This document shows positions 1 through 62,600 of a stretch of 64,000 bases of DNA, in pieces. The stretch comes from Patiria pectinifera (taxonomy: Eukaryota > Echinodermata > Asteroidea > Valvatida > Asterinidae), in NCBI GenBank assembly GCA_029964075.1, contig CM057145.1, forward strand, positions 3,038,001-3,102,000, written 5' to 3'. The notes beneath the pieces were generated by a model. It saw only the letters and a list, made by a program, of their open reading frames with translations, was not told the origin of the DNA and did no database searches. Position 1 is the stretch's first letter. Each line of letters begins with the position of its first letter. A program made the translations under genes and the position numbers.

Positions 1-230
1 AGTGAGTAAGAAGCTTGCACATTTGATTCACACTGGTTTTATTATGCAGCACAAACTTTTGCACAATATGGATACCTTAAGTTTTGGGACTCTCATACAT
101 ACACAGTATTGAGAGTCCCAAATTTTCGGACTATGGTCACCCCTCCACGGACCATATTCAATAAACAATGGAGGAATTTGCAGGATTGAGGCTACATCCT
201 AGCACAAAGGCCTAGGGAGTTAGGGTTAAT
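1..230 (-). repeat. MITE-1 family copy, cut by window start
   Basis: The segment ends in CCTAGGGAGTTAGGGTTAA, the same terminus as at 16,258-16,277 and, inverted, at 46,905. Just inside it is the family's GCAGGATTGAGG motif. A perfect small hairpin (TTGGGACTCTC with its complement) lies near 78-119. The left end is outside the window or degraded. Confidence 0.6.
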
Positions 231-12500: not shown

Positions 12501-15500
12501 ATGTATGTTGTTTGTACATCGTACATTGTACTACTTTCTGAACAGTCACAGAAAGTCAAAACATCCTGTTCCCCTGCCATGCCTTTATACACAGGCTAGT
12601 CACCAACAGTCAGATCACATTTCTTATAAAAATGTGACAAGTTGAATTCCATCAACGGACAAAAGCAGGGAATTTTTTCACTTGATTGTTTCGGTACAAA
12701 ACCTAGACATAATGTACACATATTAGTCACTGATTCTCGGTTTGAGGTTACAATAGTAATGTGTATGATTGATTGACTGGGAAAATGATTACATTTTTTT
12801 CCTGTTATTATTGTCATCAATTTTCGATATTGTTGCAAATTGTCAAGGTTTTGGTTTTTCACTGGAATACTTCGACTGAAACAGCTTGCTCAGGGAATGA
12901 AATTAATATAAAAAAAATACGACATTGAGTTCCGTACAAGTTGCGGGTAGAATCATTCACTTTTTTTTCCCGGAAGCTCTGTATTTGTCCCTGACATGTT
13001 CCGGGGAAATTTTCATTAGCAACTGCTGATAACTTCATTACAGGAAGATTGCAGGGAAGTTGTTCAGAATCCTGCAACTTATACCCAATACAATGCCCGC
13101 AACTTTGCCGGAACTCGCCCCAGATATGATTGAGACGGGCCCTTACCAATACTTTATTCTTTGCTTTCTCATCAGGTTTGTCTTTGATAGACAGAGGTGT
13201 CGTCTGTACTACTATAGAACTCCACAGGATCTGTTACCTCTTGGGTAAGAATATATAGGGTTGAGAGTACATTGACAAGTCTAGTGACCATATAAGGATA
13301 TATCTTAAAGATGTACTGTCCATACTTTGCAACAAATTTGATGTTTTTCTTCCAACGAATTCCCATTTTTGAATCGAAGTTGCAGCATTAAGCTGTATAC
13401 TTAGCAAGGACGTGAGATGATCTTTGGAATGTCTTGGCCCAGTGAGCAGGGGTACTAATGATGTTGTGGCTTGTGGATAACTTCTGCTAGATGTGTGTGA
13501 GAATTTATGCATATTGTATCATTTTGTGCAGATCAATTGATATTGCTAATGCAACGTTTAACTTCGAGGCCAATGACTCCACTAGTACCGGCCAGTTCCA
13601 TATATCGTAAGTTTCTTACGTACAAAATTATATTAATAAGTCAAGTTAGTCTTTGTAATTATCTTGTGTTAATAAGTTGGGAATTAATAATTTAACACAA
13701 ATTTCAATAAAGCACAAATCTTAATACATGCACAGTGAGTGACATCTATAGGGTACAGCTGATTTAATGAAACAGTGTGTTACGCCATGTGTACGATTAC
13801 GAAAATCTATACAATGATCAAATCATCCATTTTCAATACAACTTACTGCTCGACGTTTGTTGAATTTGATTTTGTTTGAAGTACGGGCGGCCGCATTTAT
13901 CACCTACAAGCCAAAGACAGACACACGATGATGTTCTGGCTGCAAGAACTACAGGTACTTTCTTCAATTTTTCTCGCTAAATCGGAACTTTTAAAAGATT
14001 GGGTTGATAAATGAGTTTGCTAAGATGTGATACATGTTTGAACGTTAACCAGTTCGCACCAGGATTATTTTGACATTGACCGGACCCAGGCGTGGGATTG
14101 TTTTTCACGAACCTCGATGCCAGACGGGTTCAAGTTGTGATCTGCGGGTAGCACACCCTGATATTTCTGGCCTCGCTCACTGCGAGCGGGTCGCAGACAG
14201 ATATTTCCGGCCTCGCTTGTTGCGTGTTTATCTGTAATCCATTCCGAATACCGCAAAAGCTTTGCGTGTATACACGTCGTCCGACGTGAACTGGTTAAAC
14301 TGAGAAAAAATGATGTTTTTGTAACAGTTTTTCCCAAATGCTTGCACGAACCCAAAGTTGAAAGCTTCAAAACCAGGCGATACGCTCTCCAGTTTTCTTT
14401 ATATTACATGCATTTGAAACATTAAATATAGGTTTGATACAACGCCTTATTAATAACTAGCGTGGCTATGCAATGGATCTTCTATTTACCGTGGAAACCG
14501 TATTTTTACGTTGCGGCCGGTCCGTGGTTTGGGTAGAATAATTCAATGACACGTGATCAGCGATCCACCAATCAGATGACGGGATTAAGTCAGACGTTGT
14601 GTAATACAAGATATGTTCTTGTTATAATGATATTTTGAGTTTGTCATTATTTCATAGATCTAAAATTATTTTGTAGGAACGTCGAAGAGCTTACAGTCAT
14701 CAGAGAACTTCACTGCAAAGAGATGAATCGTTGGGTCATGTGTCGCCAACATCAGTGGTAAATATTTACAGAAACATTTTGTAAATATTGCCTTAGCCCT
14801 TAATCCCCGTCCAGTCAAACTCCAACGCCAGGGTTTGTTGGAATCTGTTGGAGTGAGTACTGCACTAGTAAACTGATTATGCTTTACATGGGGTTAGGCA
14901 TACCACCATAATCAGAGTCCAACAGTTTGGGTGTTGAGTTACCATATGGTGTTGGATTTTGCAAGAGTGAGGAAGGTTCCTAGTAAATCACTCAAGGGGG
15001 TTAGGGTTAATGTCTGTTTAAATTGCGAAGGGTAAAGACCAAATGAAGCACAAATGAAAATGTTCAAAGCAACATTGACTAGAGTCGAACCTGCAACTTC
15101 TGTAGCACCTCATTAAGAACGATAACGCTGTATTGATAACTGTAACGTTGAACAAATTTAACTGCAAGCGCGTACAGGTATGCAGCGTAATGGGATGGGC
15201 CTTATTCACGAGTTGGCCATTTTTGGCGAGTTCCCTGAATGTATTGATGGGATGGCGCCAAACTATTTATGCAGGCGCAGGCAGCCTTATTCATTAAAAA
15301 ACTGTATTTTTTTTTTAATATGGCTTTAAACATTAGGGAATGTTTAATTCCAAACTTTAAATTATTAATTGAAGCAGACTGGAATTTATTTCTCTTCGCA
15401 AGTTCAAAAATTTAAGATTTTACTTAACTTTCAATTCAATATGGCCGACTCATAAATAAGGCCCATAACCACTTAAATAAAAGTTCATGTACAGCAAGCT

Positions 15501-18500
15501 CGTTCCAACTTTACTGTGTGTCAAGCTTGCTTGAAGACAAATTCGTTATCCCCCTGGCGCTCGTGGAACACGGAAAATATAGTACGTCTGTGTCCCATAT
15601 ACTACTCGGCTTCGACCTCGTGGCACATGGGGACAGACGCACTGCATTATTCTGTGTACCACTCACACTCGTGCGATAACTCAAACATGGGCAATACAGG
15701 TAGTTGCAGGCGGGCGGTTTAGGGCGATGCAGTGAATAAAATGCGTTAATTTCTTTATTGCAGCAACCCAAGACAGGTCTTGTCAGTACACAAAAGATCA
15801 AAGACCGAAGTGGCGATCCATTCAGAGGTCAGTATCAAAACAAAAGGTCAAATGTGTTCATATATTCATAAATTGTTTTTGTAGTGCGGGCATGGCATAT
15901 AAGTACGCATGAATATGTTTCTGGTAATAAAACCAAGGCTTTCTCAAGTGCGATTTTGGAGGATACAGTGTGCCAAGGTCTTAGGTCGGACCTTGTGTTG
16001 TTTACGCTCAGCCGTGCATAAATTTAGGCTAGATTATACTTGAAATCCTCCGCACTGCTCCAGGATGTCACTGGCTCTGCCTCAACATATTGACAGTGAT
16101 TGCTGGAGGATTTTGCAGGATTGAGGCAGTGTCACCCCTCCAAGGACCACATTCAAGAAATAACGGATGATTTTGAAGGAGTGAGGCTGTATGCAATGTT
16201 TACATGGAGGCAGTTGGAGGATTTTGCAGGATTGAGGTTGCATCCTAGCAAAAATGCCTAGGGAGTTAGGGTTAAAGTGTGGTGAGCATTATTAAAGAAA
16301 CGCTGATCCCTCCGTGTCACAGGTTTACCCCCTCTGTTGGGCCCAGTGGAAGTGCCCAGGCATTCGGTTGGTGAGTCAACGGCGCATTCCACGCACCAAA
16401 CAGGGGTGTTCAATCTCTCCCTCACAAACCTCAAAACAGAAATACGAAACCAGATGTCTAGTCTAGGGTAAGTTTTGTCACGAAACAAAATTTTTCTGTT
16501 TTATTTGATGTGTATCATTTGCTCGTTATGTATGTAACAATTTGTAAAAATTGAAAAAATTCAATATTTTTTATAGTAAAGGTGTGTACCATTGTCAGAT
16601 TTTATGATAATTCGTTTATTGTGTGGGTTGATTGTAGTTTACGACGTGCTAATTCTGACGAAGCTTCGTTAGTGAATCTTGCCGCAGAACCATCCCAATC
16701 TGATCCACCGAGTGCAGCTAAAAGGTAATACAATGAAAAATCCAAGTAAAGACTACAATGGGCTCAGTGCGCCAGCGAAAGAGGGTACCCTTTTACCTAG
16801 CAACAACGTCCCATGGGCGGGACATTTAGCTGGTTGACGCGCACCTTTCCTTGTGTGTGACGCACGTACACCAAGGAATTTGTACTATGAACATGTAGTG
16901 GTACGGCCGCGTGTCGCGGCAAAATTGCAGTCAGGCAAGATGGCGTCGGTCGGTCACCCCCAACTGTACTTTCTTTGCCAGTGAGGGGGTACTTGTGAAC
17001 GGAGCGGATAGCCGGACACATTGTCAATTCTATGACGTAGGCCCCCTTCAATGGCGAAAGCATTGTGCTAGCTTTTGTTCAGATCCATCATGGTTATGTG
17101 CTTTGTACAATAGCATGCACAATGGTTTCTCCATTGAAGGGGGCCTCGTGTGTACAGTGTTCACGTGACCGGATTCATACAGACAGAGGCTGCTGTCTGA
17201 AACCCATTTATGGGGCTAGGCTCTGAAACTTTTATCTACTCAATATTTTTTTTATAAACTGAAAATTGGCATCATTCAAATTTTGCATTTTTTTGTCTCG
17301 TTACCTTTGCAACCTACCGGTATCTTTCAAATTTGAGAGCTGTATCTGGAATTTCCTGTATTTTTCCTCAAAATTTTTTTTTTTTAAGGTTTTCGCCCAA
17401 CCCATTGTCAACAAATCAAGCCTTAATCTAGAATGTTTAAAATGATTATGGGCATATAGCTGAATTTGTGTAATATTTTTAAGTAATTATATTTGTAAAA
17501 TTGTTCATAGTCTGTTTCACCTGTGCACTTTTTCCTTGTGAAGTTTACTTTGCTTAACTTACTTAACAATTTGTAAAGTATGTAAGGCCCCAGTGGAAAC
17601 ACGTTTTAAACTGTTAGGGCGCACTTTGGGCAAAACAAATAAAATAAATAACTTAATTGTCAATATCTATAGCTATAGAAAAAACATTTTCAGACATCGT
17701 CCTACAATTTCAAGGTAATTAATTTGTGATATTTTCCACTCCAAATTTTAGACCCACGTCACTAAACACAGCGCCCTCTAGTGGCAACCAAGAGCCAGGC
17801 CAGTCGGAGAGCAGCCCAGCAACTGAAGGGAATAGGAAGGCATATGGTTCAATCAAAGCTGGATTTATCAAGTAAGATAGATCATTAACTTCAAGAGTAA
17901 AAGACAGTAATGTTCTTAGTTTGACCAAGAAATATCAAAAGATTTTGTTTCCTAAAAACATTCGCTGTTATTCTTGTAATATTCAGTATTAACGGAAGTC
18001 TAAATTTGTATATATTTAGGCTGTAGAAATTCATGCACATCGGCCTCGTGTTGTAAAAGACATTCATAAATACCTCAGACAGTTTACCCATTCCTATTGG
18101 TCGAGAGCCCTTCACGTGGCCAGTTTTAAACGATTGATAAAGATGCCTGGTTGGTCTTGAACGCTTTTCAGTGTCACATGAAATTTTGACACCTATAAAA
18201 TCCGGTGCTGGCACCCTTTTATTGGTTGAACGTTCACAATCCTCACGTAGGCATGCGCAATACTACCAGTGAGTCAGTATTTCATAGTCCTAAATTCACG
18301 CTTCTCCGATCCATCTGCATTGTGCGCCACATCACGCAGTACGCGCAACGCCTACGTCAATCTCCCTACCGGGAATAAGGAATTGTTTACTAGAGGACTT
18401 TACCATTGTAAAGCTGGAGGGGTGTCCTGTTGATTGAAATCATTGAAAATTTTTAATTTTTGACTTGTTTTGACTTTTGGACCAAAAATTGTTGATTGTT

Positions 18501-21500
18501 TACCAAAAAGTATTTATGAATGGGAATAAATATGTGCTTAGTCGGTATTAAACACTCTGTTTAAGACCAGTAGGAGTCTGGATGCTGATAATTACTCTCG
18601 ACTTTGGCTCCAGTAATTATGAGCAAAACCAGTCTTAAACATAGTGTTTAACACTTTCTAAGCATTCCCTTATTGAAGTGAAGGAAACACTTCAGAAAGT
18701 GAAAATAAAACATTATTTATAAAGTCTGTTTTGGGTCATTTCGGTTTCTATTTGCACAGTTTATGTAATCATTCAATTCTGTGGTATTGTGTATTTGATC
18801 ATGATCTTCCTGTAATATTATTGAGCATCATTGACAAATTTAAGCTTACTATTGACTATTACTTCAGCCCTTTGCAAAAAACCACAAAATTTCAAGATAT
18901 AGGCCTAGTTGTGTAAAAATGTTCAAATGCTGCACACTTTTTAAAAATCTTTACAAATATTTTAAATTTGTGTTTAACACCTCTTTTGAGGTCGAAAGGG
19001 TGCATTTTCTCAAAACTACTTTTTGAAGGCATATAGGATCAATTGCATTTATCCCAAAAATTATTATAAAAAAGCTGACTTGGATTAAAGATTGAACTGG
19101 TACAAAGCACCCCGTGAAATTATTCCATCTGGCTTGCTGTCATTTAGAAGAAATCAAGCAATGTAGGTGATTTTGTTTCGTGATTAAAAGGTTGTGTATG
19201 GTTTTTCACTGTTTTCTCCAAATGTGTATCTCTGAGCTGAAACTTCAACAGGTTAGGTATTGAACATTCTTCTGAGGATTTTGAGCGTTGTTATTATTGG
19301 AAATGAACAAAATGCGTAAAAAGCAAATAAACCCACAATTAACCCAAACTTCACCTAAAGCTACAAAATACTACTGAGTGGTAACCTGTACAGCGTGTGT
19401 CAATAAAAACGCAGGATTCAAAGCGATTTTTTTTCTGAGAAAATTATGCTACTGGTGTGCCTAATTTGATAAGGATTTGATTGTCCATAATTTCATCTTT
19501 GACAAGATTTTTGTTTGGTTGAATTTGGACTATTGGTTCAAAAATTATGACAAGTTTTGTGAAGCCCTTCTGAAGCGGGTTGGTCTGATTCAATGACCTT
19601 AACACAACAACCAGTTATGTACAATGCAGGTATGCATTGAAGACAATTAAACCAGAACAAAACTTTCTTTGAAACAATTGATGATAAGTATCACTTAAAT
19701 TTAATAACTGGACTATCATTGTTTCAAAGCATCATGAATTATTGATTAATAACATTGATTGTGGACTAAAGGATTATGTAAGCCTAATCCTGCCACACAT
19801 GTCCTTCTTTGTGATCCACAAATACTTTCACCTGTACTGAATTCAAACCTTTCATTAGGTATGTGTGATTTCACAAATCAGACCAGCTTGGAATTTATAA
19901 CTCTTCTTCAATGTACTCTATTTCTGGACAGGATTGTCCAAATGAGATGGGATAAAAAGCATAGTGAAGAGAAGGAAAGGTACTTTGAAAAGAGGGTTAA
20001 CATTATGATGAATAGGGGTGGTTTATATTCTTAATATTTTTGTTTCTAATCCTGCGTTTTTATTGACACACGCTGTAGTATGCATTTCTTTCCATACAAG
20101 TGTGCACAACACATGTAGTATTCTGTGGTATTTGGTCCTTGACCCCCAAACAGCCCTTATTAGGACGTTAGGGTTAAAGACCCATCAATACAAAGAAAAA
20201 CAAAGAAAACAAAACTGAAAAGCATTCATTTCTGATGTTTGGTTTTCATTTTTATATCAGGAAATTCAGTCGTACTAGTGGTGCTGATATACCGTCCCCA
20301 ACAACAGTGTGGTTTGAGAGTCAGCCATCGCAAGACTATGAATGTGCACATTGTAGAAAGGTACGTAGGTACATGCTTGTTATAATAATAGGAATGTGGT
20401 GCTTACATAGCGCTTTATACCAAAGGTCTAATAAACCCTAACCCCTAGGCCTTTTTGCTAAGAACCATCCTCAATCCTCCAAAATCCTCAAACATTTTAC
20501 AACAGGGCCTAAATTCTTCAAAATTTTCAGACAGTCCTGCCTCGAAATGCATTCATCCTCAATCCTCCAACGTCCTCCTCATCCACAAATGCTGCACTTA
20601 TGTTCAAATGAAGGGTACCCAGCCCCTCAATCCTTCAAATCGTCAGACAGTCCTGCCTCAAAATACCATTCAGCCCCAATCCTCCAAAATCCTTTCTGAA
20701 AAAAATACCATTTAGCCTCAATCCTCCAAAATCCTTTTCTGAAAAAAATACCATTCAGCCTCAATCCTCCGAAATCCTTTTCTGAAAAAAAATACCATTC
20801 AGCCTCAATCCTCCAAAATCCTTATCTAAAAAAATACCATTCAGCCTCAATCCTCCAAAATCCTTATCTAAGAAAATACCATTCAGCCTCAATCCTCCAA
20901 AATCCTTATCTAAGAAAATACCATTCAGCCTCAATCCTCCAAAATCCTTATCTAAGAAAATACCATTCAGCCTCAATCCTCCAAAATCCTTATCTAAAAA
21001 ATACCATTCAGCCTCAATCCTCCAAAATCCTTATCTAAGAAAATACCATTCAGCCTCAATCCTCCAAAATCCTTATCTAAGAAAATACCATTCAGCCTCA
21101 ATCCTCCAAAATCCTTATCTAAAAAAATACCATTCAGCCTCAATCCTCCAAAATCCTTATCTAAGAAAATACCATTCAGCCTCAATCCTCCAAAATCCTT
21201 ATCTAAGAAAATACCATTCAGCCTCAACCCTCCAAAATCCTTATCTAAGAAAATACCATTCAGCCTCAATCCTCCAAAATCCTTATCTAAGAAAATACCA
21301 TTCAGCCTCAATCCTCCAAAATCCTTATCTAAAAAAAATACCATTCAGCCGCAATCCTCCAAAATCCTTATCTAAAAAAATACCATTCAGCCTCAATCCT
21401 CCAAAATCCTTATCTAAAAAAAATACCATTCAGCCGCAATCCTCCAAAATCCTTATCTAAAAAAATACCATTCAGCCTCAATCCTCCAAAATCCTTATCT

Positions 21501-24500
21501 AAAAAAAATACCATTCAGCCGCAATCCTCCAAAATCCTTATCTAAAAAAATACCATTCAGCCTCAATCCTCCAAAATCCTTATCTAAGAAAATACCATTC
21601 AGCCTCAATCCTCCAAAATCCTTATCTAAGAAAATACCATTCAGCCTCAATCCTCCAAAATCCTTATCTAAAAAAATACCATTCAGCCTCAATCCTCCAA
21701 AATCCTTATCTAAGAAAATACCATTCAGCCTCAATCCTCCAAAATCCTTATCTAAGAAAATACCATTCAGCCTCAATCCTCCAAAATCCTTATCTAAAAA
21801 AATACCATTCAGCCTCAATCCTCCAAAATCCTTATCTAAAAAAATACCATTCAGCCTCAATCCTCCAAAATCCTTATCTAAAAAAATACCATTCAGCCTC
21901 AATCCTCCAAAATCCTTATCTAAAAAAATACCATTCAGTCTCAATCCTCCAAAATCCTTATCTAAAAAAATACCATTCAGCCTCAATCCTCCAAAATCCT
22001 TATCTAAAAAAATACCATTCAGCCTCAATCCTCCAAAATCCTTATCTAAAAAAATACCATTCAGTCTCAATCCTCCAAAATCCTTATCTAAAAAAATACC
22101 ATTCAGCCTCAATCCTCCAAAATCCTTATCTAAAAAAATACCATTCAGCCTCAATCCTCCAAAATCCTTATCTAAAAAAAATACCATTCAGCCGCAATCC
22201 TCCAAAATCCTTATCTAAGAAAATACCATTCAGCCTCAATCCTCCAAAATCCTTATCTAAGAAAATACCATTCAGCCTCAATCCTCCAAAATCCTTATCT
22301 AAAAAAATACCATTCAGCCTCAATCCTCCAAAATCCTTATCTAAAAAAATACCATTCAGCCTCAATCCTCCAAAATCCTTATCTAAAAAAAATACCATTC
22401 AGCCTCAATCCTCCAAAATCCTTATCTAAAAAAATACCATTCAGTCTCAATCCTCCAAAATCCTTATCTAAAAAAAATACCATTCAGCCTCAATCCTCCA
22501 AAATCCTTATCTAAAAAAATACCATTCAGCCTCAATCCTCCAAAATCCTTATCTAAAAAAAATACCATTCAGCCGCAATCCTCCAAAATCCTTATCTAAA
22601 AAAATACCATTCAGCCTCAATCCTCCAAAATCCTTATCTAAGAAAATACCATTCAGCCTCAATCCTCCAAAATCCTTATCTAAAAAAATACCATTCAGCC
22701 TCAATCCTCCAAAATCCTTATCTAAGAAAATACCATTCAGTCTCAATCCTCCAAAATCCTTATCTAAGAAAATACCATTCAGCCTCAATCCTCCAAAATC
22801 CTTATCTAAGAAAATACCATTCAGCCGCAATCCTCCAAAATCCTTATCTAAAAAAATACCATTCAGCCTCAATCCTCCAAAATCCTTATCTAAAAAAAAT
22901 ACCATTCAGCCGCAATCCTCCAAAATCCTTATCTAAAAAAATACCATTCAGCCTCAATCCTCCAAAATCCTTATCTAAAAAAATACCATTCAGCCTCAAT
23001 TCTCCAAAATCCTTATCTAAGAAAATACCATTCAGTCTCAATCCTCCAAAATCCTTATCTAAAAAAATACCATTCAGCCTCAATCCTCCAAAATCCTTAT
23101 CTAAGAAAATACCATTCAGTCTCAATCCTCCAAAATCCTTATCTAAGAAAATACCATTCAGCCTCAATCCTCCAAAATCCTTAACTTAAAAAATACCATT
23201 CAGCCTCAATCCTCCAAAACCCTTATCTAAAAAAATACCATTCAGCCTCAATCCTCCAAAATCCTTATCTAAGAAAATACCATTCAGCCTCAATCCTCCA
23301 AAATCCTTATCTAAGAAAATACCATTCAGCCTCAATTCTCCAAAATCCTTATCTAAAAAAATACCATTCAGCCTCAATCCTCCAAAATCCTTATCTAAAA
23401 AATACCATTCAGCCTCAATCCTCCAAAATCCTTATCTCAAAAAATACCATTCAGCCTCAATCCCCCAAAACCCTTATCTTAAAAAATACCATTCAGCCTC
23501 AATCCTCCAAAATCCTTATCTAAAAAAATACCATTCAGCCTCAATCCTCCAAAATCCTTATCTAAAAAAATACCATTCAGCCTCAATCCTCCAAAATCCT
23601 TATCTAAAAAATACCATTCAGCCTCAATCCTCCAAAATCCTTATCTAAGAAAATACCATTCAGCCTCAATCCTCCAAAATCCTTATCTAAAAAATACCAT
23701 TCAGCCTCAATCCTCCAAAATCCTTATCTAAAAAAATACCATTCAGCCTCAATCCTCCAAAATCCTTATCTAAAAAAATACCATTCAGCCTCAATCCTCC
23801 AAAATCCTTATCTAAAAAAATACCATTCAGCCTCAATCCTCCAAAATCCTTATCTAAAAAAATACCATTCAGCCTCAATCCTCCAAAATCCTTATCTAAA
23901 AAAATACCATTCAGCCTCAATCCTCCAAAATCCTTATCTAAGAAAATACCATTCAGCCTCAATCCTCCAAAATCCTTATCTAAGAAAATACCATTCAGCC
24001 TCAATCCTCCAAAATCCTTATCTAAAAAATACCATTCAGCCTCAATCCTCCAAAATCCTTATCTAAAAAATACCATTCAGCCTCAATCCTCCAAAATCCT
24101 TATCTAAGAAAATACCATTCAGCCTCAATCCTCCAAAATCCTTATCTAAAAAAATACCATTCAGCCTCAATCCTCCAAAATCCTTATCTAAGAAAATACC
24201 ATTCAGCCTCAATCCTCCAAAATCCTTATCTAAGAAAATACCATTCAGCCTCAATCCTCCAAAATCCTTATCTAAAAAAATACCATTCAGCCTCAATCCT
24301 CCAAAATCCTTATCTAAGAAAATACCATTCAGTCTCAATCCTCCAAAATCCTTATCTAAAAAAAATACCATTCAGCCGCAATCCTCCAAAATCCTTATCT
24401 AAAAAAATACCATTCAGCCTCAATCCTCCAAAATCCTTATCTAAAAAAAATACCATTCAGCCGCAATCCTCCAAAATCCTTATCTAAAAAAATACCATTC

Positions 24501-27500
24501 AGCCTCAATCCTCCAAAATCCTTATCTAAAAAAATACCATTCAGCCTCAATTCTCCAAAATCCTTATCTAAGAAAATACCATTCAGTCTCAATCCTCCAA
24601 AATCCTTATCTAAAAAAATACCATTCAGCCTCAATCCTCCAAAATCCTTATCTAAGAAAATACCATTCAGTCTCAATCCTCCAAAATCCTTATCTAAGAA
24701 AATACCATTCAGCCTCAATCCTCCAAAATCCTTAACTTAAAAAATACCATTCAGCCTCAATCCTCCAAAACCCTTATCTAAAAAAATACCATTCAGCCTC
24801 AATCCTCCAAAATCCTTATCTAAGAAAATACCATTCAGCCTCAATCCTCCAAAATCCTTATCTAAGAAAATACCATTCAGCCTCAATTCTCCAAAATCCT
24901 TATCTAAAAAAATACCATTCAGCCTCAATCCTCCAAAATCCTTATCTAAAAAAATACCATTCAGCCTCAATCCTCCAAAATCCTTATCTAAAAAAATACC
25001 ATTCAGCCTCAATCCTCCAAAACCCTTATCTAAAAAAATACCATTCAGCCTCAATCCTCCAAAATCCTTATCTAAAAAAATACCATTCAGCCTCAATCCT
25101 CCAAAATCCTTATCTAAAAAAATACCATTCAGCCTCAATCCTCCAAAATCCTTATCTAAGAAAATACCATTCAGCCTCAATCCTCCAAAATCCTTATCTA
25201 ATAACCATCCTCAATCCTCCAAAATCCTTATCTAAAAAATACCATCCAGCCTCAACCCTCCAAAATCCTTTTCTGAAAAAATACCATTCAGCCTCAATCC
25301 TCCAAAATCCTTATCTAAAAAATACCATTCAGCCTCAATCCTCCAAAATCCTTATCTAAAAAATACCATTCAGCCTCAATCCTCCAAAATCCTTATCTAA
25401 AAAATACCATTCAGCCTCAATCCTCCAAAATCCTTATCTAAAAAACTACCATTCAGCCTCAATCCTCCAAAATCCTTATCTAAAAAAATACCATTCAGCC
25501 TCAATCCTCCAAAATCCTTTTCTAAAAAATACCATTCAGCCTCAATCCTCCAAAATCCTTATCTAAAAAAATACCATTCAGCCTCAATCCTCCAAAATCC
25601 TTATCTAAGAAAATACCATTCAGCCTCAATCCTCCAAAATCCTTATCTAAAAAAATACCATTCAGCCTCAATCCTCCAAAATCCTTATCTAAAAAATACC
25701 ATTCAGCCTCAATCCTCCAAAATCCTTTTCTAAAAAATACCATTCAGCCTCAATCCTCCAAAATCCTTATCTAAAAAAATACCATTCAGCCTCAATCCTC
25801 CAAAATCCTTATCTAAAAAAATACCATTCAGCCTCAATCCTCCAAAATCCTTTTCTGAAAAATACCATTCAGCCTCAATCCTCCAAAATCCTTATCTAAA
25901 AAAATACCATTCAGCCTCAATCCTCCAAAATCCTTATCTAAAAAAATACCATTCAGCCTCAATCCTCCAAAATCCTTATCTAAAAAAATACCATTCAGCC
26001 TCAATCCTCCAAAATCCTTATCTAAAAAAATACCATTCAGCCTCAATCCTCCAAAATCCTTATCTAAAAAAATACCATTCAGCCTCAATCCTCCAAAATC
26101 CTTATCTAAAAAAATACCATTCAGCCTCAATCCTCCAAAATCCTTATCTAAAAAAATACCATTCAGCCTCAATCCTCCAAAATCCTTATCTAAGAAAATA
26201 CCATTCAGCCTCAATCCTCCAAAATCCTTATCTAAAAAAAATACCATTCAGCCTCAATCCTCCAAAATCCTTATCTAAAAAAATACCATTCAGCCTCAAT
26301 CCTCCAAAATCCTTATCTAAAAAAATACCATTCAGCCTCAATCCTCCAAAATCCTTATCTAAAAAAATACCATTCAGCCTCAATCCTCCAAAATCCTTAT
26401 CTGAAAAAATACCATTCAGCCTCAATCCTCCAAAATCCTTTTCTGAAAAAAATACCATTCAGCCTCAATCCTCCAAAATCCTTATCTAAAAAATACCATT
26501 CAGCCTCAATCCTCCAAAATCCTTATCTAAAAAATACCATTCAGCCTCAATCCTCCAAAATCCTTATCTAAAAAATACCATTCAGCCTCAATCCTCCAAA
26601 ATCCTTATCTAAAAAAATACCATTCAGCCTCAATCCTCCAAAATCCTTATCTAAGAAAATACCATTCAGCCTCAATCCTCCAAAATCCTTATCTAAAAAA
26701 ATACCATTCAGCCTCAATCCTCCAAAATCCTTATCTAAAAAATACCATTCAGCCTCAATCCTCCAAAATCCTTATCTAAAAAAATACCATTCAGCCTCAA
26801 TCCTCCAAAATCCTTATCTAAGAAAATACCATTCAGCCTCAATCCTCCAAAATCCTTATCTAAAAAAATACCATTCAGCCTCAATCCTCCAAAATCCTTT
26901 TCTGAAAAATACCATTCAGCCTCAATCCTCCAAAATCCTTATCTAAAAAAGTACCATTTAGCCTCAATCCTCCAAAATCCTTTTCTAAAAAATACCATTC
27001 AGCCTCAATCCTCCAAAATCCTTATCTAAAAAAATACCATTCAGCCTCAATCCTCCAAAATCCTTATCTAAAAAAATACCATTCAGCCTCAATCCTCCAA
27101 AATCCTTATCTAAGAAAATACCATTCAGCCTCAATCCTCCAAAATCCTTATCTAAAAAAATACCATTCAGCCTCAATCCTCCAAAATCCTTATCTAAAAA
27201 AATACCATTCAGCCTCAATCCTCCAAAATCCTTATCTAAAAAAATACCATTCAGCCTCAATCCTCCAAAATCCTTATCTAAAAAAATACCATTCAGCCTC
27301 AATCCTCCAAAATCCTTATCTAAAAAAATACCATTCAGCCTCAATCCTCCAAAATCCTTTTCTGAAAAAATACCATTCAGCCTCAATCCTCCAAAATCCT
27401 TATCTAAAAAATACCATTCAGCCTCAATCCTCCAAAATCCTTATCTAAAAAATACCATTCAGCCTCAATCCTCCAAAATCCTTATCTAAGAAAATACCAT

Positions 27501-30500
27501 TCAGCCTCAATCCTCCAAAATCCTTTTCTGAAAAATACCATTTAGCCTCAAAATTCCAAAATCCTTTTCTGAAAAATACCATTCAGCCTCAATCCTCCAA
27601 AATCCTTATCTAAAAAAATACCATTCAGCCTCAATCCTCCAAAATCCTTATCTAAAAAAATACCATTCAGCCTCAATCCTCCAAAATCCTTATCTAAAAA
27701 AATACCATTCAGCCTCAATCCTCCAAAATCCTTATCTAAAAAAATACCATTCAGCCTCAATCCTCCAAAATCCTTATCTAAAAAATACCATTCAGCCTCA
27801 ATCCTCCAAAATCCTTATCTAAAAAAATACCATTCAGCCTCAATCCTCCAAAATCCTTATCTAAAAAAATACCATTCAGCCTCAATCCTCCAAAATCCTT
27901 ATCTAAGAAAATACCATTCAGCCTCAATCCTCCAAAATCCTTATCTAAAAAAATACCATTCAGCCTCAATCCTCCAAAATCCTTATCTAAAAAAATACCA
28001 TTCAGCCTCAATCCTCCAAAATCCTTATCTAAAAAATACCATTCAGCCTCAATCCTCCAAAATCCTTATCTAAAAAAATACCATTAAGCCTCAATCCTCC
28101 AAAATCCTTATCTAAAAAAATACCATTCAGCCTCAATCCTCCAAAATCCTTATCTAAAAAAATACCATTCAGCCTCAATCCTCCAAAATCCTTATCTAAA
28201 AAAATACCATTCAGCCTCAATCCTCCAAAATCCTCTTGTGCTTCAATCACCATTCATCCTCAATCCTCCAAAATCCTTATCTAAAAAAATACCATTCAGC
28301 CTCAATCCTCCAAAATCCTTTTCTAAACAATACCATTCAGCCTCAATCCTCCAAAATCCTTATCTAAAAAAAAAACATTCAGCCTCAATCCTCCAAAATC
28401 CTATCTAAAAAAATACCATTCAGCCTCAATCCTCCAAAATCCTTATCTAAAAATTACCATTCAGCCTCAATCCTCCAAAATCCTTATCTAAAAAAATACC
28501 ATTCAGCCTCAATCCTCCAAAATCCTTATCTAAAAAAATACCATTCAGCCTCAATCCTCCAAAATCCTTATCTAAAAAAATACCATTCAGCCTCAATCCT
28601 CCAAAATCCTTATCTAAAAATTACCATTCAGCCTCAATCCTCCAAAATCCTTATCTAAAAAAACACCATTCAGCCTCAATCCCCCAAAATCCTTATCTAA
28701 GAAAATACCATTCAGCCTCAATCCTCCAAAATCCTTATCTAAGAAAATACCATTCAGCCTCAATCCTCCAAAATCCTTATCTAAAAAAATACCATTCAGC
28801 CTCAATCCTCCAAAATCCTTATCTAAAAAAATACCATTCAGCCTCAATCCTCCAAAATCCTTATCTAAAAAAATACCATTCAGCCTCAATCCTCCAAAAT
28901 CCTTATCTAAAAAAATACCATTCAGCCTCAATCCTCCAAAATCCTTATCCGGAAGAATACCATTCAGCCTAAATCCTCCAAAATCCTTATCTAAGAAAAT
29001 ACCACTCAACCTCAATCCTCAAAAATCCCTATCATAAAAAATACCAGTCATCCTCAATCCTCCAAAATCCTTATCTTAAAAATACCATTCAGCCTCAATC
29101 CTCCAAAATCCTTATCTAAAAAATACCATTCAGCCTCAATCCTCCAAAATCCTTATCTAAAAAATACCATTCAGCCTCAATCCTCCAAAATCCTTATCTA
29201 AAAAATACCATTCAGCCTCAATCCTCCAAAATCCTTATCTAAAAAATACCATTCAGCCTCAATCCTCCAAAATCCTTATCTAAAAAAATACCATTCAGCC
29301 TCAATCCTCCAAAATCCTTATCTAAAAAAATACCATTCAGCCTCAATCCTCCAAAATCCTTATCTAAAAAAATACCATTCAGCCTCAATCCTCCAAAATC
29401 CTTATCTAAAAAAATACCATTCAGCCTCAATCCTCCAAAATCCTTATCTAAAAAAATACCATTCAGCCTCAATCCTCCAAAATCCTTATCTAAAAAATAC
29501 CATTCAGCCTCAATCCTCCAAAATCCTTATCTAAAAAAATACCATTCAGCCTCAATCCTCCAAAATCCTTATCTAAGAAAATACCATTCAGCCTCAATCC
29601 TCCAAAATCCTTATCTAAAAAAACACCATTCATCCTCAATCCTCCAAAATCCTCATGTGCTTCAATCACCATTCAGCCTCAATCCTCCAAAATCCTTATC
29701 TAAGAAAATACCATTCAGCCTCAATCCTCCAAAATCCTTATCTAAAAAAATACCATTCAGCCTCAATCCTCCAAAATCCTTAACTTAAAAAATACCATTC
29801 AGCCTCAATCCTCCAAACTCCTTATCTAAAAAAATACCATTCAGCCTCAATCCTCCAAAATCCTTATCTAAGAAAATACCATTCAGCCTCAATCCTCCAA
29901 AATCCTTATCTAAAAAAATACCATTCAGCCTCAATCCTCCAAAATCCTTATCTAAAAAAATACCATTCAGCCTCAATCCTCCAAAATCCTTATCTAAACA
30001 ATACCATTCAGCCTCAATCCTCCAAAATCCTTATCTAAAAAAATACCATTCAGCCTCAATCCTCCAAAATCCTTATCTAAAAATTACCATTCAGCCTCAA
30101 TCCTCCAAAATCCTTTTCTAAAAAATACCATTCAGCCTCAATCCTCCAAAATCCTTATCTAAAAAAATACCATTCAGCCTCAATCCTCCAAAATCCTTAT
30201 CTAAAAAAATACCATTCAGCCTCAATCCTCCAAAATCCTTATCTAAAAAAATACCATTCAGCCTCAATCCTCCAAAATCCTTATCTAAAAAAATACCATT
30301 CAGCCTCAATCCTCCAAAATCCTTATCTAAAAAAATACCATTCAGCCTCAATCCTCCAAAATCCTTATCAAAAAAATACCATTCAGCCTCAATCCTCCAA
30401 AATCCTTATCTAAAAAAATACCATTCAGCCTCAATCCTCCAAAATCCTTATCTAAAAAAATACCATTCAGCCTCAATCCTCCAAAATCCTTATCTAAAAA

Positions 30501-33500
30501 AATACCATTCAGCCTCAATCCTCCAAAATCCTTATCTAAAAAAATACCATTCAGCCTCAATCCTCCAAAATCCTTATCTAAAAAAATACCATTCAGCCTC
30601 AATCCTCCAAAATCCTTATCTAAAAAAATACCATTCAGCCTCAATCCTCCAAAATCCTTATCTAAAAAAATACCATTCAGCCTCAATCCTCCAAAATCCT
30701 TATCTAAAAAAATACCATTCAGCCTCAATCCTCCAAAATCCTTATCTAAAAAAATACCATTCAGCCTCAATCCTCCAAAATCCTTATCTAAAAAAATACC
30801 ATTCAGCCTCAATCCTCCAAAATCCTCATGTGCTTCAATCACCATTCATCCTCAATCCTCCAAAATCCTTATCTAAAAAAATACCATTCAGCCTCAATCC
30901 TCCAAAATCCTTTTCTGAAAAAATACCATTCAGCCTCAATCCTCCAAAATCCTTATCTAAAAAAATACCATTCAGCCTCAATCCTCCAAAATCCTTTTCT
31001 GAAAAAATACCATTCAGCCTCAATCCTCCAAAATCCTTATCTAAAAAATACCATTCAGCCTCAATCCTCCAAAATCCTTATCTAAAAAATACCATTCAGC
31101 CTCAATCCTCCAAAAGCCTTTTCTGAAAAATACCATTCAGCCTCAATCCTCCAAAATCCTTATCTAAAAAATACCATTCAGCCTCAATCCTCCAAAATCC
31201 TTATCTAAAAAATACCATTCAGCCTCAATCCTCCAAAATCCTTATCTAAAAAAATACCATTCAGCCTCAATCCTCCAAAATCCTTATCTAAAAAAATACC
31301 ATTCAGCCTCAATCCTCCAAAATCCTTTTCTAAACAATACCATTCAGCCTCAATCCTCCAAAATCCTTATCTAAAAAAATACCATTCAGCCTCAATCCTC
31401 CAAAATCCTTATCTAAAAAAATACCATTCAGCCTCAATCCTCCAAAATCCTTATCTAAAAAAATACCATTCAGCCTCAATCCTCCAAAATCCTTATCTAA
31501 AAAAATACCATTCAGCCTCAATCCTCCAAAATCCTTATCTAAAAAAATACCATTCAGCCTCAATCCTCCAAAATCCTTATCTAAAAAAATACCATTCAGC
31601 CTCAATCCTCCAAAATCCTTATCTAAAAAAATACCATTCAGCCTCAATCCTCCAAAACCACAAGGAGGATTGAGGAGGATTGAGGAGGGTTAGGATTAAA
31701 AGAGCTTCACCATTATTACCCCTGTTCATCAGGCCATGAGACCAGTTTTTCTGCAGCAGCTCGAGATGATCGCAAACTGGTCTCTGCCCTCACGGGTACC
31801 CATTTATACTCCTGGGTGGAGAGAGGCAATTGTAGTAAAGTGTCTTGCCCAAGAACACAGCACCATCTTCCCTGTCATCGTCAATAAGAGCAATTTTTTT
31901 TGCAGCAGCTCAAGATCATCAAAAACTGGTCTCTACCCTCATAGGTACCCATTTATACTCCTGGGTGAAGAGAGGCAATTGTAGTAAAGTGTCTTGCCCA
32001 AGAACACAAGCACCATGTTCCCCATCAGGGACTGAGGGTTCAAACCCACGCACCATGGTACATGAGTCGAACACTGCAACCATTGAACCATGTCACTCCA
32101 TCAGATACAAGAGGTTTAATAATTACCCTGGATTGGACATTTGGGAGACATCCCCATAGACTTGTGCGCACAATTGTTCAATCTTAAATGTGCCCTAACC
32201 CAATATTCCCTTGTCCTTTTTCCATGAATTTCGGTATGTTTACTAATTAGACCACGAGCAACAAATATAATCTAATTGCGACTGCAAAATTGTGCCTCTA
32301 AAGGGGGGCTGTGACATTAGGGAGACATGAAAATGTCTCCCTAATGACCGATGTCTCCCATCGTGCGAAGAAATTACGATAACGTGTCTCCTTAATGGTA
32401 CCATTGCATGTATAAAAGTGTTAATATATTGTTGTGATCCACAGTTACATTCTGAGTTGAATTCAGTCCAGGAGGAGTTGGAGTTGGTTGAAAACGAGGC
32501 GTGCGCTAGCCAGGAAGTGATCACCATGCTGCATAAACAGCTGACTGCTAAACACATGGAACATTCCACAAAGTAAGTACCAATTTGAAGGGGGGGGGGG
32601 GATGATGACACTTTGAATAAAAGATTTGAATCAAAACTAACTTTTTCATAACAAGGTTGTAATTCTTTCTGTAGTTGCACAGTAAAACAGTATACAAATA
32701 TTGAGTGGCTCAGCGTGGAATGGGAGGAATATTATCGCAAGGTAAAATCTGGACTTTTCCATTTCACGAGGCGAAGCCGAGTGAACTGGAAAAGTCCAGG
32801 TTTTACTGGTCGATAATATTCCTCCCATTTCACAATTTAAAGCCACTCAATATTTGTTTTATATAATGACATATAGATCCTTGTCATTTGATATATTTGA
32901 ACTTTTTTCAATACAAAACTGGAGGAAAATGTATTTCTCTCTTCCAAACCTCCCCTTCACGAAAATGTTTGAACCCAACGCAACGCTGTAGCGCTGGCTC
33001 TTTGGAACAATACGCGCAACGCTGAACGCGCACACCAGCATGCATTTGCACGCAAATACCGCGTCATGATCCTAACTGTTGAATAGTATTTCCCATTCCC
33101 CATGGGTGGATAGTACTTTTTGAGCCGTGGCGTGAATGGGAGCAATAACGAATGCCACGTGATGTGAGTTCCACCAATCAAATGACAAGGATCTGTATGT
33201 CGGTTATATAATACACAAAAAGGAATGTTTATGAGTGCAATAGTGAGAATATTTTCATGAGGCGACAGATGGATGTTCCATTCCACGAGGCAGAACGTTC
33301 CATCGGTCACCGAATGAAATAGCTCTTTCCATTGCACGAATGTGTGATGTTTTATACAACACCTGACTAAATCCTCGTCATCTGATTGGTCATAGCCACC
33401 AATAGTGTGACCGTGCAATGAAACTTCTATGTACGTGGAACAGAACTTTATTTTTGTGGTGTGGCCGGGGTGTGGGTTGGGACGAATAATTCAATGACGT

Positions 33501-45500: not shown

Positions 45501-48500
45501 ATGGGCTCTTTCTGGGAGTGCAATTATATGTGTGATATACATTCGCAATTTGTTGTTTTATTTTTGTAATGCCATAACGATAGCAGGTGATCATTTCACA
45601 ATAACCGCTGTAACGATAGCCACTACATATTTGATCAAATGATAGTCAGGTGCCGTTTTGATCTTCTATACAGAATGGTTGAATGGCGTGTGAAGAGAGA
45701 CAAGGAGCTAACCGGGCCAGGCTACTACGACAAGCTCCTCAAATCAGAGGTAAAAAGGTCAACTCTGAAAAAATGCAAAGTGAAGTCAAGTTTTGAAGTT
45801 GAAGAGTATGAACAAAAATCCATGTGTACGTTTCAATGTGTAAATTGCGCTGTGCGTTAACCAGTTGCGTATCGTGGTGCGTACTCTGAAAATCCATGTG
45901 TACATATTTTTCCGCACGCTTGATGGGCGTAAAAGCTCAAATAGAGAAGACGCAGCAGTTCTACGAGCAGAACAAAAAATCAAGTCTCAATCAAAGTTGG
46001 AATAGTTTTGTCAAAATTCAGAATAATTATGAAATTAGATTTAACGTCTTAATTAAATGCAAGTGGTATCAACAGTTGATGCTTTGAAAATTAAATCACG
46101 ACAGGCCCTAGTTTGGTTCAATAAGATTCCATTTTCGCTCCGTTCACAAGTACCCCCCTCACCGGCAAAGAAAGTACAGTTGGTGGTGACCAACCAACGC
46201 CATCTTGCCTGACTGCAATTTCGCCGCGACACGCGGCCATACCACCATGTACCACTGCGTGTACATAGTACAAATCCCCTGGTCTAGGTGCATCACACAC
46301 AAGAAACGGTGTGCGTTAACTAGCTAAATGTCCGCCCATGGGATGTCGTTGCTAAGTAAAAGGGCGCCTTCTTTCGTTGGCGCACGGAACCCATACCACT
46401 TTGTTTTCAAGCATTGTAACCCCACCTTTACATCGTTTGTTTCAGTTTCACACAAAAGTACCGAATGTGTATTGTATTTGCATTCCTTTCAATCACTTCA
46501 TAAAGCATGTAATATTTCAACGGATAAAATCGCAGTACGGATAGCGCATTGGGCATATGAATACATTGACGCATGCACGATGCTTTTTGAACAACTTGGT
46601 TTTACGCATCACCAATGCATACTAACGCATGACGGCACGTGGGTTTTCAGCCTAAGGGTATGTAATAATAATACCAGGCACCAACACTCCTATCTCATTT
46701 TGCGTATTTAACAGAAATTCAAGATGAACCCAGCCACCAAGCAGATAGAACTTGACCTGCTTAGAACTCTGCCCACCAACAAGAACTTTGACAACATTGA
46801 ATCCAAAGGGGTAAGTTGCATGACATGAGCTGGGCCCAACTTCACGGTGCTGCTTAATTAACAGTTAGCAGAAAAGTTGTGCTTAGCACAGCAGAAAAAT
46901 GTGCCTTAACCCTAACTCCCTAGGCCTTTTTGCTAGGATGTAGCCTCAATCCTGCAAAATCCTCCAATTGGCCTCATGGAAAAATAGCATATAGCCGCAA
47001 TCCTGCAAATTCCTCCATTATTTCTTGGATATGGTGACCACCGCCTGAATCCTGCAAAATCCTGCGGCAGTGACTGTCAATATGTTGAGGCTTGGCCAGT
47101 GACATCCTGGAGCAGTACGGAGGATTTCAAGCATAATCCAGGCCAAATTTATGCATGACTGAGCAAAAACAACACAAGGTCTGGCCCAAGACCGTGACAA
47201 AGTGCATCCTCAAAATCAGTAACGCACTTTTGCCAAATTCCTCTACTTTGGCAAAGAGGATTTTGAAGGATTCAGGGCGGTTAGGGTTGAGCACCATTTC
47301 ATAGCATGGATGTGCTAACGGTCCCGTGTGCATGGAGATTTCAATTGTTACGTCACTAAGTTAAGCAATGTTTTCCTCTGAGGTAAGCGTGCCTTGTGTT
47401 GTGCTTATGGTCTCCATGAAATACAGGCTCTGTTAGAAATAAATTGTGTGCTTAGCAGCGCCGTGAAATTGAGCCGTGGTTTTGTACCAGATGGTTTTAA
47501 AGGGAATGTACAACATTTGCTTTTGCTTGAATTTTCAGAAACAAATGGATTTAGAGGATTAGTATGTTAGAGAAAATATTGTTTAACTGACTTGTTTCAC
47601 GTTTTGGGCTTGTAGATGCTGGAAAAACCAAGAAAACCTATCATGTTCTTGTAGTCTGGTTCTCTGACCCCACTTAAGATGAAACGAAGCAATTAATTCA
47701 CTTTGGGGAATTATAAGGTCAGAGAATCACTCTAGCAGGCTTGTACCCCTTCATAGGTGTGTAATCAATTGCAAAGAAATGTCAGAATAACTAAATATGA
47801 AAAATTAGGAACAGTTGTTGGAAAAAAGCCAGTTTTTCTTCAAAATGTCAGCACACCAGGAGCCACGATTTTAAAGGATGCTTTAGAATGTCAGTCCCTA
47901 ACAATTCAGTAAGGTATTTCATGATAATTTGATCATTTCGTTTTTTGATGTTTGCAAATGTTGTATCTTCCCTTTAACAGTACAAAAGGCTCTAACAACA
48001 GGAACTTGTTTCTTTTAGATTCCGTGTTTGCGACGGGTGCTGAAAGCCTACAGTGTGCACAACCCTGCGATAGGATACTGTCAGGTATGTACCATGGAGC
48101 TATTAATCCTAAACTGCCTACCGTACATATTGCTGAACAGCCGGTCGGTGACTGACACAGCGCCCCTCTAAAATCAACTGACACTTTCTTGGCATTCAGC
48201 CGAAATGCTTGTGTGATTTTGGAGGATTGAGAGGGCATAAGATTAAGGAAAGTGTTTGTACTACATGTACCTTCGAATGAAGGCCAGAGAAGATGGATTT
48301 TAGCATTTCTGCAGTGAGGTTTTGTCCTGTTCATAAAGTGATGCTGCCTCCAGCTTTAATGATCATGCATTTGCTCTTTTTTGTGGCAGGGACTCAATCG
48401 TGTTGCTGCCATCAGTCTCCTGTTTTTGGATGAAGAAGATGCATTTTGGTATGTATTTGAAGCACTCAAAAATATTCAGAAAACACATTAATTAGCCGAG

Positions 48501-51500
48501 GTTCAAGGAATATAGGATCATTTTGTTTGTGAGGTCCTGAACCTCACGCTGTGGTGTAGAACCTCACTATGAGGTGTTTGATGTTATTTTGTGGTTCTGA
48601 ATCGCATGCTGTGTTGTACAATCCATTATGAGACCATGAGGCGCTTCACTTCATTATGAGGTTCTGAACCTCACTTTATGCTGTTGAACCTCATTGTAAG
48701 GTACTGGATAGTTTTGTACCTCTCACATCATTCATATGTTCAAGGTTCTCTTGTCTGATGTGTGTATTTGGCCTGATTTCACTAGGTGCCTCGTTGCCAT
48801 TGTTGAGTGCATCATGCCGGCAGATTATTACAGTAAGACGTTGATTGGTTCTCAGACTGATCAGAGAGTCTTCAAGGATCTCTTGTCAGAGAAGCTGCCA
48901 AGACTCAATACCCACCTGGACAACTTTGGGTCAGTAATCCTGGGACAATGTATTTTCAGGCTTTCCTTATTCTTGCTTTTGGATCTTCAGTACTGTAGTT
49001 GAGTCCATCACGAGCCTACACAAAGGTGACAAGTTCTCACAAGCATGACAAGTCCTCACGAAACCTCAAGAAACCTCATGTATCCTGACAAGTCCTCACC
49101 AGTCCTTACAAAACCTCATGAGTCCCCACAAGTCCTCAAGAAACCTCATGAATCCTCACAAGTCCTCACAAGTCCTCAAGGGTCCTTACGGAACCTCATG
49201 AGTCCTGACAAGTCCTCTCGTAACCTCATTAATCCTCACAAGTCCTCACGAAACAAACCTCATGAGTCCTCCATGTCCTCGCAAGTCCTCACGAGTCCTT
49301 ATGAGTCCTCACAAGTCTTCATGAGTCCTCACGAATCCTCATGAGTCCTTATGAGTCCTCACGAGTCCTCATAAAACTTCACGAGTCCTCATGAGTCTTC
49401 ACGACTCCTCAGTTGTCCATCACCAGTCCTCACAAGTCATACAAGTCCACACAAGTCCTCACAAGTCCATCACAGGATATCAGAGTCCCAAGTCAAGTCA
49501 AAAGCTATTCAAGTGAACTACGGAAAAACGTCCACTGTTCTTGTTCATCTCCTGTTATTTGAGAATGGACTTGAGATTGACGTCCAACGGGACTTGTGAT
49601 GGACTTGAAAACAGTACTGGGTTACGCACATGGAAGACATGTATTGTACCCATCGTTATTGACAGAAAGAGGACAATAGTATTTCTTCAAAAAGATGAAG
49701 CTTGATAATTCCTATTGATGAAGAAGTCCATCTTTCTTGCTCCTGCAGCATTGATCTGTCTCTCATCTCCTTCAACTGGTTCATTACGGTCTTCTGTGAC
49801 AACGTCCCACCAGAGGTGAGACGCAAAGCAATAATTACACATCCCAAGTTTGGAATTACAAATAATCCAGGAAACTGGTCACAAAACTGTGAAGAATTGA
49901 ATTCTGTTTGGGAATACTGGGAATTACTCCTGACAAACTCCTGACATCAGGCTTGGGTTGCTTGATAAAGCTCACGTGAGGAATATTAAGAATTTCTCTT
50001 TTCGAAGTGACAAAATTTCCAAGATTGCTTTGATTGATCTTGGTGGTAGGGCCTTCAAGCCACCTGCCTTGCCAGGGACTGACCTACGGGGAACAAAAAC
50101 TAAATCCAGTCTTTTGCCAAGACTAGGGTAAATGGCGCCCTCGTAGAGCTTCAGATGGCAACCGCCCGTCGGTCCCGCCCTGCTTTGAAGCAAAAAATAT
50201 CTAATGAACACATCACAGCAGACAGTTTCCTTGATTTTTAATTGGGTAGCGCTGTAGTCCAATGGCTACGGTGTTCGACTCATGTGCTGTGGTATGTGGG
50301 TTCAAACCCTGACGGGGAACATGGTGCTTGTGTTCTTGGGCAAGACACTTTAGTACAATTGCCTCTCTCCACCCAGGAGTATAAATGGGTACCTGTGAAG
50401 GTAGAGACCAGACTGCGCTGATGCTTGTGTCCTTGGGCAAGACACTTTACTACAATTGCCTCTCTCCACCCAGGAGTATAAATGGGTACCTGTGAGGGTA
50501 GAGACCAGACTGCGCTGATGCTTGTGTCCTTGGGCAAGACACTTTACTACAATTGCCTCTCTCCACCCAGGAGTAATGAATGGGTACCTGTGAGGGTAGA
50601 GACCAGATTGCACTGATCTCGAGCTGCTGCAAAAACTGGTCTCTTGGCCTGATGAACAGGGGTTATAATTGTGAAACGCTTTGAGACCTTTGGTATAAAG
50701 CGCTATATAAGCACCATATTATTATTAACCATCGCACCAGATAATGCACTTGATTTTTCCTTATCAGACTATGGTACGTATCTGGGATACCTTGTTGTAC
50801 GAAGGCAACAAGGTCCTGTTCCGTTTTGCCTTGGCGTTCTTGAAGTCGTGTGAGGCTGAGCTTTTGGCACTGCATGATTACATCCTCATCTTCAACTACC
50901 TCAGGAAAATGGCGTGCAAGATGACAGATGTCCACCGACTCTCAGAGGTCAGTCATGCTAGATCACTAGAAACCTAATGACCCATCTCAGCTCACATGCA
51001 GGACGTGTTCCAGACAAGGCCAGGTTCGCGCAAGGACTATAGTTGACCAATGGTTAACTAACGTTTGCCCGAACTCTGTCTAGTCAACGGTGGTTGACTA
51101 CGCTAGTCGACTATTTGGAACCAGCCTACTGGGGTTGGTTGCTTCGCTGGTAACCAATAGCCGCGCGCATTCATAACGCTAGCAGAGAGCCAGGATCCAG
51201 AGGTTTTGCGATGACATTTTGACCAGCGTTTGACTAGAGACGTTCGCACGTTGCTATCAGTGCGCAGGCGTAAGGTACGTCACAAATCAACCACTAGTCG
51301 ACTAATGGTCCTTGCCCGAACTTGGCCCAAGTTGAAAGTAGAATCATTCACTTTGTCTGGAAGAAGCTCTGCATTTGTCCTGGACATGTTCCGGGGAGAT
51401 TTTCATGAGCAACTGCTTGACTCACCAATACTGATAATTTCATTGCGGGAAGATTGCGGGGAAGTTGTTCAGAATCCTGCAACTGATACCAGATACAATG

Positions 51501-61260: not shown

Positions 61261-61301
61261 CAGACAAATGGAATAAATAGCATAAAAAGTGGGGTTTTTT
61301 T

Positions 61302-62165: not shown

Positions 62166-62600
62166 CATGCCCACTACTCCTGGAACACTCACTGTGACAG
62201 TGTTCCTGTAACTGCTCCCTTGGGCTGAAGGAGCTCGATGCTCATCCTTCTCTGACGCCCTTCCCTTGTAGAAACATCCAGGCACTTGACAAACGAAGGC
62301 CCTCCAACAACACTCACTGTAACAGTGTTCCTGTAGCCGCTCCTTTGTGCTGAAGGAGCTCGATGCTCATCCTCCTGTGACGCCCTTCCCTTGAAGAAAC
62401 ATCCAGGCGCTTGACAAACGAAGGCTCTCCTGGAACACTCAATGTAACAGTGTTCCTGTAGCTGCTCCTTTGTGCTGAAGGAGCTCGATGCTCATCCTCC
62501 TCTGACGCCCTTCCCTTGAAGAAACATCCAGGCGCTTGACAAACGAAGGCCCTCCTGGAACACTCACTGTGACAGTGTTCCTGTAAACAATCCCTTGTGC
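62166..62600 (-). repeat. TRAF-type finger 125 bp repeats, block 2
   Basis: Three and a half units of the same sequence as block 1, again 125 bp apart (GCTGAAGGAGCTCGATGCTC at 62,225, 62,350 and 62,475). Confidence 0.7.

Follow-up and report, generated by a model that had tools for sequence, protein, structure and literature searches.

A Minisatellite of About 11 kb between the Ends of a Probable piggyBac-Like MITE within a SINE of Patiria pectinifera

A 64-kb stretch of the genome of the sea star Patiria pectinifera (assembly GCA_029964075.1, contig CM057145.1, positions 3,038,001 to 3,102,000; this whole stretch is called the window below) contains a minisatellite of 42-bp units, about 11 kb long. 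The array lies between the two ends of a miniature inverted-repeat transposable element (MITE), which itself interrupts a short interspersed nuclear element (SINE). From this nesting follows the order of events: the SINE, then the MITE, then the array inside the MITE. Most probably, a piggyBac-like MITE landed in the SINE, and an interval between copies of its own repeated motif was expanded to the array by slippage or unequal exchange, presumably for the greater part after the insertion. All comparisons were made within this one window, and the element copies, tiles and motif sites were counted in it only. The coordinates of the features are given in Table 1.

The Interrupted SINE

The host site was mapped by blastn of positions 50200-50760, which include an uninterrupted copy of the SINE, against the window with the array masked. 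The left piece matches 50727-50684 with 91% identity. The right piece, from 31699 up to 32088, matches from 50682 downward with 73.9-91.7% identity over overlapping alignments. These overlap because both SINE copies carry internal tandem duplications, which differ in unit length: a 97-bp unit repeated 3.0 times at 50325-50617 and a 149-bp unit repeated 1.9 times at 31746-32022 (Tandem Repeats Finder, TRF). In the uninterrupted copy, the two matched parts adjoin, with a single base (50683) between them. Two independent SINE fragments would hardly be expected to meet in this way. An earlier inspection of the same DNA, the sequence-only reading, had described the two pieces as continuous parts of one intact SINE, placed an ~11-kb minisatellite between MITE ends inside it and deduced the same succession of SINE, MITE and array; the alignments, TRF and the nesting bear it out on all three points.

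The SINE is likely tRNA-derived, even if ARAGORN and Rfam (at the gathering threshold) found nothing. Putative A and B boxes were located 44 bp apart in the copy at 50.2 kb (TAGTCCAATGG and GGTTCAAACCC) and at the same distance in the interrupted copy (TGGTTCAATGG and GGTTTGAACCC, the latter with one mismatch). In a third copy (44.5-44.9 kb), only the B box showed.

The MITE Ends and the MITE Family

The left MITE end at the array locus (20434-20492) matches 46908-46967, in a complete element named copy A, with 86.7% identity (E = 2.5e-14, blastn). The right ends of the two loci are identical at 29 of 37 positions in an ungapped local alignment; its score of 34 compares with 23 for the best of 1000 mononucleotide shuffles. 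Both elements carry a subterminal motif close to either terminus, in direct orientation on the left and inverted on the right. Copy A has this motif (CCTCAATCCT, at most one mismatch) in direct orientation at 46944, 46995 and 47044 and inverted at 47276. The sequence-only reading had both ends and the three loose direct copies right; it passed over the inverted one, and the termini that it printed, e.g., AAACCCTAACCCC, include flanking bases of the TTAA type.

The features of copy A are those of a MITE: a length of 377 bp, inverted CCCTAAC at both ends and no listed open frame of at least 130 codons across it. The family is, moreover, multicopy: in addition to the array locus, the 64 kb include copies A, B and C and a diverged one at 15 kb. 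It is likely piggyBac-like, judged from termini and flanks: the element starts with CCCTAAC beside TTAA-like bases, which fits the hallmarks of this group, CC[C/T]T termini and a TTAA duplication, as given in the available portion of PMC2872659. The left ends have CCCT, as does copy A at its right end; on the right of the array locus, TTAA is followed by TCCTAAC, and hence by TCCT, with one mismatch. CCCTAAC occurs 12 times in the window (both strands), and five of the 12 sites are directly preceded by TTAA, whose background density outside the array is 0.0067 per base; these counts are not independent because the element copies are related. The flank is TAAA at the left end of the array locus, TCAA at the right end of copy A and unrelated at the other five sites.

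Apart from the array locus, four aligned copies bear a terminus. The sequence-only reading had named MITE copies lacking the motif as evidence that would count against the seeding. The copies with left ends at 225, 16271 and 46910 carry it within one mismatch, and the fourth (15006) shows it, by eye, only with two mismatches.

Two further sequences resemble parts of the element. At 20130-20180, about 260 bp before the MITE of the array, a short inverted-repeat sequence ends in TTAGGGTTAA, which is MITE-terminus-like, and does not have the motif. At 54522-54614, 93 bp are 98.9% identical to 47081-47173, in the interior of copy A; MITE ends did not align next to them, and the counterpart in copy B is 86% identical. 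This segment may be a fragment that was captured or a core that moves separately.

Homology between the Array Unit and the MITE

A doubled array unit aligns with copy A over the first repeat, the spacer and the second repeat with a score of 52, a value reached by none of 500 dinucleotide shuffles of copy A (best, 30). The scores are also above those of the shuffles for copy B (43, maximum 30), for copy C (34, maximum 25) and, at the array locus itself, for the left edge (41, maximum 34). When the minus strand was compared, copy A alone beat its shuffles (30 vs. a maximum of 25), as predicted by its inverted motif. Among 260 tiles of 400 bp outside the array, the highest score belongs to the tile overlapping copy A (52) and the second highest to the one overlapping copy B (43).

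A transition zone separates the left MITE end from the array. Four degenerate copies of the motif, more widely spaced than in the array, start at 20468, 20508, 20557 and 20625 (by eye), and the zone includes a 16-bp sequence that occurs twice. The proposal that the internal repeats of the MITE seeded the array is supported because the homology spans not only the motif but also the spacer (0/500 shuffles) and because the left edge keeps the looser form of the repeat, grading into the array. The expansion had been put at ~260-fold; this figure is the copy number (~262), and four degenerate copies come before the array.

The same two observations bear on another origin, in which the MITE captured an unrelated minisatellite that already existed, as proposed in the literature for the Xenopus element miDNA4 (available portion of PMC12628747). 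Here, the unit aligns with the repeat and spacer of the MITE itself, and a zone of degenerate copies leads from the MITE end to the array, so that a capture is highly improbable. Scans for relatives with exact patterns gave 0 stretches in viral_contigs and 0 in genome_contigs, collections of viruses and prokaryotes from which the genome of the window was possibly left out, so that these negatives carry little weight.

Organization of the Array

TRF reports 262.7 copies of the unit with 96% matches (score 20180). Splitting the array at a conserved core gave totals that varied with the anchor (259, 261 or 262 units). With one anchor, 47 distinct types were found among 259 units, the most frequent present 111 times. 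Pairwise identity averages 96.0% (3000 sampled pairs), and adjacent units share 96.4%. The plus strand is rich in C and poor in G, hence a strongly negative GC skew: all four 2-kb bins contained entirely in the array (22001-30000) have values from -0.81 to -0.83.

The spacer variant TCTGA characterizes the first three units and is found in 13 of 261 overall, three of them close to the right end. Furthermore, a run of 13 units at 22828, four of them rare, reappears at 24379, 37 units away; in 500 shuffles of the unit order, such a run holds at most two rare units. The 47 unit types and the repeated block are the pattern that slippage or unequal exchange would leave, and the unit variety, the edge variants and the block duplication together fit repeated rounds of both. 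The unit at 25178 leads into AACCATCCTCAATCC at 25203, a sequence context shared with the left end of the MITE (20463); this junction suggests that the first motif and the array exchanged sequence. Three odd units, at 28218, 29637 and 30810, are nearly identical to each other and lie 34 and 28 units apart, with a spacer (CTCWTGTGCTTCAATCACCATTCA) dissimilar to the usual one.

Long near-identical arrays are difficult to assemble, and the length of this one may be in part an artefact, over- or under-expanded. The block of 13 units could itself result from misassembly. Conversely, 47 distinct units among 259, with rare variants in order, are unlike an assembly looped over one unit, and an artefactual length is considered improbable.

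Within the array, 2.00 substitutions per site were counted at motif positions vs. 6.09 in the spacer. Special conservation of the motif was nevertheless rejected, as the contrast falls to 2.00 vs. 3.00 without the A-run of the spacer. This difference is at best weak support for the motif as a candidate subterminal binding site for the transposase of the element or for a host repressor. Both copy A and the array locus have the motif inverted between their two ends, which agrees with such a role; the role itself stays very doubtful. If it were true, more than 260 sites between two element ends could act as a transposase sink, or the locus could move as an 11-kb mobile minisatellite.

The open reading frames of the array (up to 334 codons) were rejected as coding, as units of 41 and 43 bp break the frame. 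Two forward frames and one reverse frame stay open by composition, the unit of 42 bp corresponding to 14 codons. Strong secondary structure as the driver of expansion was likewise rejected: three units fold no better than shuffled sequence on either strand (200/200 and 66/200 shuffles at least as stable). Folding is unusual only at the right edge of the array (z = -4.16 and -3.23; 1/200 shuffles each), because the last array unit there finds a partner in the inverted motif of the MITE end, with which its own motif can form a 12-bp hairpin.

Origin of the Array

The most probable course of events can be outlined. A non-autonomous piggyBac-like element with TTAA-type flanks and CCCTAAC termini would have inserted, probably through a piggyBac transposase, into a SINE in a probable intron of a gene for PH and TBC (RabGAP) domains. 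The element would already have carried its subterminal motif, CCTCAATCCTSCAAAATCCT, in several direct copies at loose spacing. The stretch from one of these copies to another may then have shrunk to 42 bp, providing the founder unit, which replication slippage, unequal exchange or both would have multiplied to ~262 copies and homogenized. Most simply, the array is a neutral by-product, and a function is not needed.

Several observations weigh against this origin. The central sequence of copy A was not found at the array locus, and loss or replacement of the MITE center must therefore be assumed. No copy of intermediate length was seen in the window. The 4-mers flanking the two-ended copies are unequal (TAAA/TTAA at the array locus, TTAA/TCAA at copy A); neither has an exact target-site duplication, hence the assignment to piggyBac is likely, not proved. 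The pairing of MITE and motif, in a small sample, is not clean either: a fifth TTAACCCTAAC terminus, at 20173 in the short inverted-repeat sequence described above, is directly preceded by TTAA and has no motif, its membership of the family being doubtful; on the minus strand, a motif-like site (CTCTCAATCCTCCAAAATCACA, 48232) has no MITE terminus within the 151 bases around it. Finally, the strong block duplication is a single case. The unit-lag autocorrelation reaches 0.229, above the 95% quantile of the shuffles (0.217) and below their maximum (0.262), which is unconvincing, and a regular higher-order period was rejected.

The array could also have grown elsewhere, within a mobile copy of the element, and have arrived ready-made as a mobile minisatellite of ~11 kb. 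Both element ends are kept at the edges of the array, and piggyBac elements tolerate large cargo. The other copies in the window are short, however, the complete one measuring 377 bp, and a ready-made arrival is rather unlikely. Expansion within the inserted MITE is retained as the best explanation.

Table 1. Features of the array locus and related element copies in the window.
Feature	Position	Strand	Basis
Interrupted SINE, aligned part of its 3' tail; the TTAA-type flank follows after AA (20430-20431)	20386..20429	-	blastn
TAAA, probable degenerate TTAA target-site duplication, left	20432..20435	+	Four other family left ends in the window have TTAA
Left end of the likely piggyBac-like MITE, CCCTAACCCCTAGGCCTTTTTGCTAAG..., including the first subterminal motif	20436..20492	+	86.7% match to copy A
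Transition zone with degenerate copies of the motif at distances of 40-68 bp; two occurrences of CAGACAGTCCTGCCTC (20528, 20644)	20493..20659	+	Partly by eye
42-bp minisatellite, 262.7 copies	20660..31657	+	TRF; unit census
MITE right end, inverted motif (31664-31685) and GGGTTAGGA	31661..31695	+	Local alignment to copy A
TTAA, probable right target-site duplication; last base also aligned to the SINE	31696..31699	+	Sequence
Rest of the interrupted SINE, A/B-box-like tRNA promoter elements near its head	31699..32088	-	blastn, box scan
Uninterrupted SINE (yardstick copy), 97-bp unit in 3 tandem copies inside	50246..50730	+	TRF, blastn
Complete MITE copy A, element 46910-47286 (377 bp) with flanking 4-mers	46906..47290	+	blastn, motif scan
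MITE copy B, right end not found	15952..16275	-	82% over 324 columns (blastn)
MITE copy C, left part only	151..229	-	Two overlapping blastn matches (61 bp, 97%; 51 bp, 88%)
Diverged MITE relative, only left end aligned	14954..15010	-	74% over 57 bp, E = 5e-4 (blastn)

Gene Setting and Neighboring Features

The flanks of the locus read, by eye, as exons: one ends at 20360 before GTACGT, and the next starts at 32445 after CACAG. The array is thus in a probable intron of 12,084 bp, 91% of which it occupies. Two domains were identified in the joined conceptual exons: PH (PF15413, 3.8e-7; 13.2-14.8 kb) and RabGAP-TBC (PF00566, 1.6e-9; 46.7-50.9 kb). The peptide joined across the intron of the array matched no Pfam family, and this intron is presumed to lie within the same gene. 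The order of the two domains is suggestive of a TBC1D2-like gene.

Other repeats are present in the window. A minisatellite at 43562-44093 (11 bp x 48, 90% matches) has a unit related to that of a second one at 49029-49474 (units of 10-20 bp, 67-68% matches), and the two are 73-75% alike in most blastn pieces. Tandem repeats of 125 bp at 60771-61261 and 62177-62585, partly within open frames, sit in a segment that is present twice (60838-61902 and 62177-63250, 94%). On the minus strand, an open frame of 269 codons (4433-5239) encodes a sulfotransferase domain (PF00685, 1.4e-12).

Comparison with Known Systems

Tandem arrays formed from MITE sequence are on record, among them Xstir and miDNA4 (PMC12628747, PMC8268682, PMC2872659, PMC9659126), and further cases are tabulated in PMC9659126; the comparison relies on the available portions of these papers. 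With a unit homologous to the MITE and MITE ends as its borders, the present array is of the same kind. In Xstir/Xmix of Xenopus (Hikosaka and Kawahara 2004), the repeats also come from the sequence of the MITE itself, and MITE, array and composite forms occur (PMC12628747); the source of the Xstir repeat is the terminal inverted repeat (table of PMC9659126). The sequence is different, and the present locus is a single composite in which the SINE host site can still be read. In miDNA4 of Xenopus tropicalis (Scalvenzi and Pollet 2014), a satellite monomer likewise lies inside a MITE, either singly or in arrays that differ in length (PMC12628747, PMC9659126). This element, on the contrary, is of the Tc1/mariner type and was proposed to have captured a pre-existing repeat, whereas the unit described here is homologous to repeats of its MITE.

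CMITE of Acropora corals is piggyBac-like, with a TTAA duplication, CC[C/T]T termini and tandem arrays attributed to replication slippage (PMC2872659). There, whole MITEs are in tandem; here, only an internal interval is repeated. Minisatellites derived from transposable elements are also on record in the human genome; many are associated with Alu, and they are not specific to MITEs (PMC9659126).

Satellite-like DNA arising from MITE repeats is, hence, already established, and the present locus is a clear and unusually legible example. A single locus keeps the target repeat, the inserted element, the loose ancestral repeats, the transition zone and the homogenized array. Such steps are usually lost; with them, the way in which repeats of a transposon founded a minisatellite becomes readable, and this founding could be dated through the comparison of alleles and of related species.

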